This document shows positions 58,196-59,364 of a stretch of DNA of 64,000 bases, in pieces. The notes under the pieces were generated by a model. The model was given only the letters and a program-made list of their open reading frames with translations, was not told the DNA's origin and did not search any database. Every line of letters begins with the position of its first letter. Within the stretch, counting starts at the first letter, position 1. Source of the stretch: Cytophagales bacterium (lineage in GTDB: Bacteria; Bacteroidota; Bacteroidia; Cytophagales; 172606-1). A program made the position numbers and the translations under genes. The DNA is taken from NCBI GenBank assembly GCA_030446715.1, contig JAUJMU010000005.1:149709-213708 (forward strand), in the 5' to 3' direction.

Positions 58196-58285
58196 CCGGG
58201 AGAATTTCCGGTCAACAGGGGTCACAAGTATACTTTAGCCAGTGATTTTGACGCACCACTGGAAGATTTTAAAGACTATATGTAA
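58196..58285 (+). pseudogene. Remnant of a VapB/DUF2281-type antitoxin
   Basis: Right after the proline dehydrogenase stop, in the same frame, the sequence encodes HKYTLASDFDAPLEDFKDYM and a stop. SDDFDEPLEDFKEYM is the typical C-terminal end of DUF2281 antitoxins that pair with PIN toxins. The N-terminal half and start codon are missing. Its stop overlaps the toxin start (TAATG), the usual coupling of such pairs. Confidence 0.75.
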
Positions 58286-58681
58286 TGAGACTGCTGTGGG
58301 ATACGCATACTTTCCTGTGGTTTGTGGCCGGCAGTAGCGAGTTGAGTCAAAAGGCCAGGCAAACCATTGAGACACCATCCAATGAGCATTTCTTAAGCAT
58401 TGCTAGCTTGTGGGAGATTTCTATTAAGACCGTCCTTGGTGAACTAGCAATCCAAGGCAGTTATGAATCGGTTATCAATGATGTTACTGAGAACGGTATC
58501 CAGATTCTGCCTATCAATTTTACCCATACGGTCCAGCAGCATCAACTGCCTTTACACCACCGTGACCCTTTCGATCGTATGATTGTTTCCCAAGCTCTTA
58601 TTGAAGGCATGCATTTAAATTAGTAGAGGCGAAGTTTTTGATGAGTATTTGAAAAATCAGTCCTTTACAAGAATTTGGTAA
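58285..58681 (+). pseudogene. VapC-type PIN-domain toxin with a 3' frameshift
   Basis: The 112-codon frame (58285-58623) has the PIN metal ligands D6 (LLWDTHTFLW), E44 (SLWEIS) and D94/D97 (HHRDPFDRM), then ends early at HLN. One extra A in ttaaatt (58614-58620) breaks the frame; removing it gives HLISRGEVFDEYLKNQ and a stop at 58681, exactly the family's normal end at about 131 aa. VapC toxins are RNases that cut tRNA or rRNA. With the antitoxin also truncated, the module is probably inactive. Confidence 0.8.
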
Positions 58682-58690
58682 AGAAGGCCA

Positions 58691-58784
58691 GCAGGCAACA
58701 CCAAGCCCTACGGCCAGCGGCCCGCCATAGCGCAGACCCAAGCATGAGGGCTCGCCGTCGTGGGTTTTCGGTTCGTTAGCACAC
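58691..58784 (+). repeat. attC-like palindromic repeat, copy 1
   Basis: Shares with copy 2 (59209-59300) the ordered blocks AACACCA, GGCCAGCGGCyC, GAGGGCwCGCCrTCGTG, TTCGGTkCGTyAG. Inner arms AAGCCC and GGGTTT can pair. Its right end GTTAGCACAC is the exact reverse complement of the left end of copy 2 (GTGTGCTAAC), the relation expected between the two borders of an integron cassette. Confidence 0.6.
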
Positions 58785-58791
58785 ATCAAGA

Positions 58792-59197
58792 ATGAAAAGA
58801 ACATTACTGTTTCTATTGGCATTCATTGTTTTGCATGACAACCGCAGGTGGATAGACAAAAAGAATTGGACTTTGCTTTCCCTTCAATAATCTTTAATTC
58901 ATTTGAGCAGGTAAAAGATAAGATTACAGGGGAGTGGTCGGGAAAAGAAGTCTGTTGACAAAAAATTCAACGGAAGGACAATTTACTCTTGAAGTTAAGT
59001 ATGATTTCGAAGAGTTTTTTACTCTCATTGAGCATAAGCTAGTGGAAGATAAACAAACGAATAAGACAGTCATTAGAGCTATGCTTTACAAAATTGATGA
59101 CCATTATGTACCCGAAACTGACGACAACGCTATACTGACTTTACATTTTCTATCAGAGAAGCAGCTTAAATTGAATGATTGGCTGTTTGAAAGATAA
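58792..59197 (+). pseudogene. Decayed gene between the two attC-like repeats
   Basis: An ATG at 58792 begins a signal-peptide-like MKRTLLFLLAFIVLH; the frame then breaks. Frame two from about 58839 reads QPQVDRQKELDFAFPSIIFN and FEQVKDKITGEWSGKE; the third (to 59197) reads NSTEGQFTLEVKYDFEEFFT and YKIDDHYVPETDDNAILTLH. Joined, they make a plausible secreted protein of about 130 residues broken by at least two frameshifts. No family recognised. The short frame 58934-59197 alone (GTG start, 87 aa) would be its only intact piece. Confidence 0.5.
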
Positions 59198-59208
59198 AAT
59201 GAAAAGGA

Positions 59209-59300
59209 CGTGTGCTAACACCAGCTACAACCGGCCAGCGGCTCACCGCATTGCCTTAACTTGAGGGCACGCCATCGTGTAGCTTCGGTGCGTCAGTTGT
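59209..59300 (+). repeat. attC-like palindromic repeat, copy 2
   Basis: Same orientation as copy 1, about 520 bp downstream. Inner arms AGCTACA and TGTAGCT are perfectly complementary, and CACC/GGTG next to them also pair, giving the two-box folded shape of an attC site. The 196 bp after it (59301-59496) hold only AT-rich inverted repeats. Confidence 0.6.
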
Positions 59301-59364
59301 TTTTGATCAAGAATTCAAAATCCAGAACCCGATTAATTTTGCCTGCTTACCTGAGTACATGATC

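Follow-up and report, generated by a model that had tools for sequence, protein, structure and literature searches.

The window analysed here is a stretch of 64,000 nucleotides from a Cytophagales bacterium (assembly GCA_030446715.1, contig JAUJMU010000005.1, positions 149,709 to 213,708), part of the contig that we call C8. Between a proline dehydrogenase gene and a gene of the lactonase family it carries two repeats in direct orientation, which an earlier note, made from the letters alone, had proposed to be attC-like sites framing a gene cassette, perhaps of a divergent cassette system of Bacteroidota. Our analysis bears this proposal out: the locus is very probably a decayed remnant, resembling a cluster of attC sites lacking integron integrases (CALIN), of an integron-like cassette system that is served, in the way proposed below, by a tyrosine recombinase with HARP-like N-terminal repeats (HARP-type). 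The proposal is supported by arrays of such sites elsewhere in the genome, by cassette borders that co-vary between neighbouring sites only, and by a recombinase gene immediately upstream of the arrays in relatives. The features of the locus are as follows.

58223..58285, + strand: C-terminal remnant of a VapB-like antitoxin (HKYTLASDFDAPLEDFKDYM, stop), by translation; the last 20 codons, the N-terminal part gone.
58285..58681, + strand: VapC-like PIN-domain toxin gene, the cassette gene of site 1 (PF01850 PIN, E 8.8e-10).
58685..58787, + strand: attC-like site 1 (covariance model R1, 90.4 bits, E 1.8e-18, as a member of the training set; BLAST homologues; covariation), with boxes R'' AGCAGGCAAC at 58690-58699, L'' AAGCCC at 58703-58708, L' GGGTTT at 58762-58767 and R' core GTTAGCACAC at 58775-58784.
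58776..59292, + strand: complete cassette of 517 bp between both sites, with the exact border pair GTTAGCACAC / GTGTGCTAAC.
58792..59197, + strand: decayed cassette gene, its ATG 17 nt past the border, with a signal-peptide-like start (MKRTLLFLLAFIVL), broken over three frames.
59205..59304, + strand: attC-like site 2 (covariance model R1, 71.1 bits, E 1.4e-13, as a member of the training set; alignment), with boxes R'' GTGTGCTAAC at 59210-59219, L'' AGCTACA at 59223-59229, L' TGTAGCT at 59278-59284 and R' core GTCAG at 59292-59296.

Both repeats share one anatomy: the head ends with YAAC-ACC, a pair of complementary boxes flanks a long imperfect palindrome, and the tail has CGTTA in copy 1 and CGTCA in copy 2. 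Both internal pairings that had been noticed do form, AGCTACA with TGTAGCT and AAGCCC with GGGTTT, the latter with one G-T pair. The core of site 2 deviates from GTTA, and its stem arm is a few nucleotides shorter. The border match that had been claimed is exact: in reverse complement, the outer end of copy 1 reads the same as the head of copy 2. The limits of the cassette given above would follow, by analogy with integrons, from a crossover placed after the G of GTT.

The locus is an old, decayed two-site remnant without an integrase. Three of its parts are damaged or lost. The toxin-antitoxin remnant noted before copy 1 includes a VapC-like gene that is frameshifted near its end, with an open reading frame (ORF) to 58623 that continues in another frame (ISRGEVFDEYLKNQSFTRIW, stop at 58679-58681), the stop abutting site 1. 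The cassette gene between the sites is spread over three frames, the final piece being the ORF 58934-59197, and a Pfam search of the gene gave no match. The left border of the VapB/VapC cassette is lost as well: nothing upstream of the VapB remnant matches GTTGCCTGCT, the best candidate agreeing at 7/10 positions. That the window holds no integrase was also borne out, with no recombinase match in its part of contig C8. A CALIN is defined by at least two attC sites within 4 kb and no integrase; the two sites here lie 520 bp apart, and the assignment treats them as attC-like by structure, border and cassette rather than by the published attC model.

To place the sites we labelled the genome of the window G000, its genus G000-G002, a genus g3 with G004 and G006, and a genus g2 with G003, G005 and G007, all in family f1; G004 is a complete genome and G001 and G002 are drafts. 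A BLAST search with copy 1, which is independent of the covariance model, finds 8 further copies in G000, the best at 83-85% identity (E 2.7e-20); two genomes of the same genus and one from the wider family contain copies as well. A profile search found 98 copies in the regions first fetched, mostly in same-strand arrays, and the covariance model R1 found 107 sites in G000 at E <= 0.1, some scattered and many in tandem same-strand arrays, the largest with about 30 sites (C25:95-113 kb). The conserved blocks for which the earlier note had advised a search are thus found repeatedly in tandem, with differing genes in between. Among 118 genomes of the order, R1-type sites occur only in G000-G002, G004, G006 and, weakly, G023, and a search of the repeat region of the window against Rfam matched no relevant family.

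The border relation was examined over the whole family, by comparing the seven bases after GTTA of one site with the seven before YAAC of the next in sites registered by the covariance model, which supersedes an earlier, cruder border parser (3.6/6). Over 90 adjacent pairs the mean match is 5.25/7, while random pairs give 2.26, the two ends of the same copy 2.33, pairs that skip one site 2.41 and pairs in reversed order 2.32; 54/90 adjacent pairs match at six of the seven positions and 3/90 at all seven, against about 1.3% of random pairs. Chance as the source of the exact match in the window is excluded by this test. The relation is restricted to adjacent pairs and is therefore a property of the stretch between two sites, that is, of the cassette, whose first bases are complementary to its own attC as in integrons. 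The core departs from the integron form, as had been observed in the window: across 123 sites [GA]TTR is found in 99, the canonical GTTRRRY in only 10 and RYYYAAC in 18. The outcomes that the earlier note had named as telling against a cassette system did not occur, with one qualification: many sites are scattered singly, and for about 12 of the 27 array-leading or solitary sites of G000 a left border that fits the site itself survives 53-931 bp upstream, which is what the insertion of single cassettes into the chromosome would leave; the shorter 9/10 matches among these are individually barely above the control.

What lies between the sites also has the form of integron cassettes. The 87 intervals of G000 and G004 have a median length of 498 bp, and the longest ORF lies on the strand of the site in 62, on the opposite strand in 8 and is absent by our criterion in 17, starting a median of 28 nt past the border and with a median length of 136 aa, so that the cassettes are small and usually hold a single ORF in the same direction near the border. 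Their products match GNAT acetyltransferases, erythromycin esterase, Cass2 (named in Pfam 'integron-associated effector binding protein'), ParE, PIN, Imm7 and transposases; models of defence systems run on the cassette ORFs matched none. Two arrays of G004 that are separated by 660 kb hold one cassette in identical copies (542/542 bases); on either side the match breaks off at the core, and the flanking sequences are unrelated. The same pattern recurs in further duplicates of 555/555 bp and 513/515 bp in G004 and of 425/423 bp in G000. Since identity over the whole cassette stops at the cores and the flanks are unrelated, the cassette is, in these natural copies, the unit that moves.

That the hairpin is real is argued by covariation. 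RNAalifold on 48 copies gives 15 pairs, 14 of them changed on both sides, and in a 22-pair structure of the same copies that includes the R box 88% of the cells are standard pairs and 17/22 pairs show changes on both sides, with 162 double-change cells against 56 in shuffled alignments and a covariation score of 0.427 against 0.176 when shuffled and at most 0.095 when the partners are slid. In this respect the sites resemble those of integrons: they form imperfect palindromes in which the R and L boxes pair and the structure is conserved. Folding energy was tried as evidence and dropped, because single copies fold no better than shuffled sequence (z of +0.5 to -1.1).

The earlier note had suggested that an IntI-like recombinase be sought elsewhere. 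A tyrosine recombinase gene does lie immediately upstream of arrays in relatives, but 'IntI-like' describes it only in part, since its product lacks the IntI-specific domain. In G004 the gene for a recombinase of 596 aa stops about 160 nt upstream of the core GTTATGCCCT, with which the first cassette begins; the head of the first site matches this core, and recombinase gene, attI-like core and cassette array follow one another in one direction. A second integron of G004 carries the same HARP-type gene (L108:5618-8167), interrupted by the insertion of a transposase gene (L108:6710-7498). A divergent serine resolvase/invertase gene (L105:19263-19841) closely precedes the G004 integrase. The recombinase of G006 is 665 aa long and agrees in length, score and match coordinates with that of Rhodocytophaga aerolata. 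Within family f1, G000, G004 and G006 have both sites and recombinase, and G003, G005 and G007 have neither.

Three N-terminal repeats of the protein are followed by a SAM-like domain and a catalytic one, in which R, K, R, H and Y are invariant. HARP (PF07443) matches the repeats in 14/33 members (best E 1.7e-7), their profile matches the SMARCAL1 structure 4o66 at E 0.018, and AlphaFold2 predicts three repeat units, each strand-strand-helix-strand-strand-helix (mean predicted local distance difference test, pLDDT, 80.6; predicted template modelling score, pTM, 0.40, at which the arrangement of the domains is unreliable). The nearest solved structures of the catalytic part are IntI4 (2a3v) and XerA (5hxy). 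The insertion specific to IntI near patch III is absent, with 22 residues in place of the 64 in IntI4 (2a3v); 33 columns of the alignment are occupied only in IntI; and the spacing from RxxE to HxxRH is 91-97 in 44 HARP-type proteins and 133 in IntI (7 of 31 IntI measured). All HARP-type proteins score below the integron-integrase cut-off TIGR02249, while NF040815 matches 33/33 aligned members. In a tree of 90 recombinases the HARP-type (99/96), IntI (100/100), Xer (100/99) and IS91-associated (100/100) proteins each fall on one side of a well supported branch; long branches meet at the point where the HARP-type proteins might join IntI as its sister.

Outside its host family the covariance model R1 gave one marginal hit in other Bacteroidota, leaving the sites there unrecognised, because it is specific to that family, and a model-free test for chains of matching borders was used instead. 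When 84,980 species genomes were searched with the alignment of the recombinase, 52 loci were returned, 51 of them in Bacteroidota. Border chains behind the recombinase gene were found in Solitalea (two species), Arundinibacter, a metagenome-assembled genome (MAG) of Paludibacter and several MAGs of Bacteroidales or Bacteroidetes, and shorter chains of two cassettes in Spirosoma, Aquiflexum and a Cyclobacteriaceae MAG. The chains have up to six links, where shuffled controls rarely exceed two, and the sites are hairpins of 130-145 nt with a different sequence. A homologue at E <= 1e-80 is present in 185/395 Bacteroidia genomes, about ten of them long forms with several repeats and most 350-450 aa. 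Of the short forms followed by enough sequence, L212, L218, L225 and L227 have clear chains of four to seven links that start 50-145 nt behind the gene, five have chains of two links, and about six have none that exceeds the control. The short forms appear by eye to have a single similar N-terminal repeat, and Pfam calls HARP only in L223, a longer form. Because some short forms are without chains and HARP is called only in L223, the figure of 185/395 should be read as a maximum for the system described here. An integrase gene adjacent to an attI-like site and an array is accordingly seen in relatives (G004, Solitalea, Arundinibacter, others and short forms) and not in the window.

Two observations touch on this distribution. 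A 347-aa relative of the recombinase lies on the Chryseobacterium sp. SNU WT5 plasmid NZ_CP041688.1 (L167), followed by small genes on the same strand, so that the system may be plasmid-mobile as well. In L220, L222, L228, L229 and G000:C1 the contig runs out no more than about 1.3 kb past the recombinase gene, which would be expected if the array that follows breaks assemblies; arrays in drafts would then be hidden.

Read from the DNA, the system has hairpin sites at the 3' ends of its cassettes, borders at which each cassette pairs with the site that it carries itself, whole cassettes as exact units of movement and, in relatives, recombinase gene, attI-like core and cassette array in this order and in one direction. 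It works like an integron, yet it is not a canonical integron, because the domain that defines the integrase was tested for and is absent. We propose that the HARP-type recombinase, with its SAM-like and catalytic domains and one to three HARP-like repeats, acts on the hairpin folded from a single strand and would cut at the (C)GTT core; circular cassettes would be inserted at attI or at secondary sites in the genome and excised again, as by IntI. The HARP-like repeats may replace the additional domain of IntI in reading folded or branched DNA. We advance more tentatively, as a possibility somewhat less likely than not, that about half of Bacteroidia species carry a second, IntI-independent integron lineage in which HARP-like repeats, fused to a tyrosine recombinase, take the place of the IntI domain as reader of the folded single-stranded attC; cassette capture through folded DNA would then have arisen, or been rebuilt, twice.

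Several results weigh against the reading of the window as a remnant of such a HARP-type system. The recombinase gene of G000 is placed where contig C1 ends, and a run of N falls within its N-terminal part, so that both its intactness and its array are hidden; the drafts G001 and G002 have sites and no linked HARP-type recombinase was seen there; for some members, the sequence makes the assignment to HARP a weak one; about six of the short-form loci inspected have no chain above the shuffled control; and by folding energy the hairpins of the family are no better than shuffled (z +0.5 to -1.8).

An ordinary integron or CALIN, with usual attC sites and a genuine IntI, now elsewhere or lost, that acts on them, would explain the integron-type anatomy and cargo overall, and canonical IntI is common in the other classes of the phylum (105/395 genomes over the cut-off). 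We consider it improbable, since no protein of G000-G007 passes TIGR02249, the recombinase beside the arrays is without the IntI-specific insertion and forms a separate clade, and GTTRRRY is so rare among the sites. As the phylum was sampled, G154 is the only one of the genomes filed as 'same class' to hold IntI at that level, which suggests that HARP-type and canonical IntI integrases divide the phylum between them.

It is similarly unlikely that genuine arrays are mobilised by a different recombinase (XerC/D, or the IS91-associated type that is multicopy in G004), the HARP-type gene being a mere neighbour. Several further tyrosine recombinases are indeed encoded in the same genomes, but it is the HARP-type gene that stands directly upstream of the arrays in unrelated lineages, namely G004, Solitalea, Arundinibacter, Aquiflexum, Paludibacter and, as short forms, four further ones; its stop is followed at about 50-250 nt by the first border, and the others show no such linkage. 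A recombinase of G000 at C10:293 kb, with a weak 25-bit site beside it, was considered as a candidate and rejected, as it groups with the IS91-associated recombinases and the site has no matching border. G004 also encodes a 326-aa tyrosine recombinase of a clade of its own (L105:7008-7985) in about eight copies, some in or beside cassette arrays, which adjoins an IS91-like transposase where examined (L108:2622-4756).

An unrelated dispersed family that lies between genes by chance, such as a miniature inverted-repeat transposable element (MITE) or a repetitive extragenic palindrome (REP), would account for the sites scattered singly and would sit easily with the lack of an Rfam match, but is scarcely credible, since the borders co-vary with the next copy only (2.33/7 within a copy and 5.25/7 with the neighbour) where a MITE carries both ends within one copy and the units here have one end in the neighbouring site, and since the arrays have a single direct orientation, one same-strand ORF per interval and duplications that end at the core.

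The HARP-type cassette system, which we take the window to represent, shares with integrons, including sedentary chromosomal ones and CALINs, a tyrosine recombinase gene, an attI-like site, mostly one-gene cassettes that end in an imperfect hairpin, border bases that pair with the cassette's own site, a GTT core, a cargo of toxin-antitoxin, GNAT and Cass2 genes, and clusters of sites without an integrase elsewhere in the genome. It differs from them in a recombinase that has N-terminal HARP-like repeats in place of the additional domain and belongs to a separate clade, in the [GA]TTR core, and in the long conserved stem sequence common to the sites of the window's family. Whereas intI of class 1 integrons is divergent from the cassette array, the recombinase gene here runs along it. 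The SAM-like and catalytic domains are those of the XerA type (NF040815, 'site-specific tyrosine recombinase/integron integrase'), whose members resolve chromosome dimers and have neither HARP-like repeats nor a cassette array. The N-terminal repeats, in turn, resemble the HARP domain of SMARCAL1, which is part of an annealing helicase and binds branched DNA.

Bacteroidota are generally held to have almost no complete integrons, probably because searches depend on IntI and on an attC model. Reviews count the phylum among those that bear integrons (PMC8618304, PMC9668308), and the additional domain of IntI serves as a defining criterion (PMC9668308, PMC2426708). The IntegronFinder 2.0 survey lists one complete integron in Bacteroidetes proper (PMC9024848), compared with about 107 sites in the single genome studied here; the Salinibacter ruber M1 integron and the Bacteroidetes In0 elements (PMC9024848) come from the same broad phylum but have canonical IntI. 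A classification of tyrosine recombinases uses the IntI insertion to describe its integron-like subgroup, and HARP is not mentioned in it (PMC8138268). Our literature search, which covered neither preprints nor most subscription journals, found no paper that combines the HARP domain with a tyrosine recombinase and none that describes this cassette system. It seems that a widespread gene-swapping machine has been overlooked in Bacteroidota. If it is active, this phylum, among the largest in bacteria, possesses a machine for cassette capture of its own and hundreds of unexplored cassettes, with toxin-antitoxin systems, acetyltransferases, esterases and many unknown genes; and the feature that an integrase needs for recombination of folded single-stranded DNA becomes testable, because the domain held essential in IntI is absent here.

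Directly behind site 2 of the window lies an A/T-rich repeat of about 60 bp (59293-59350), unrelated to the attC-like sites, which recurs in at least five other places of the genome (C8:213828, C18:163739, C23:96795, C14:1353 and C15:29214).
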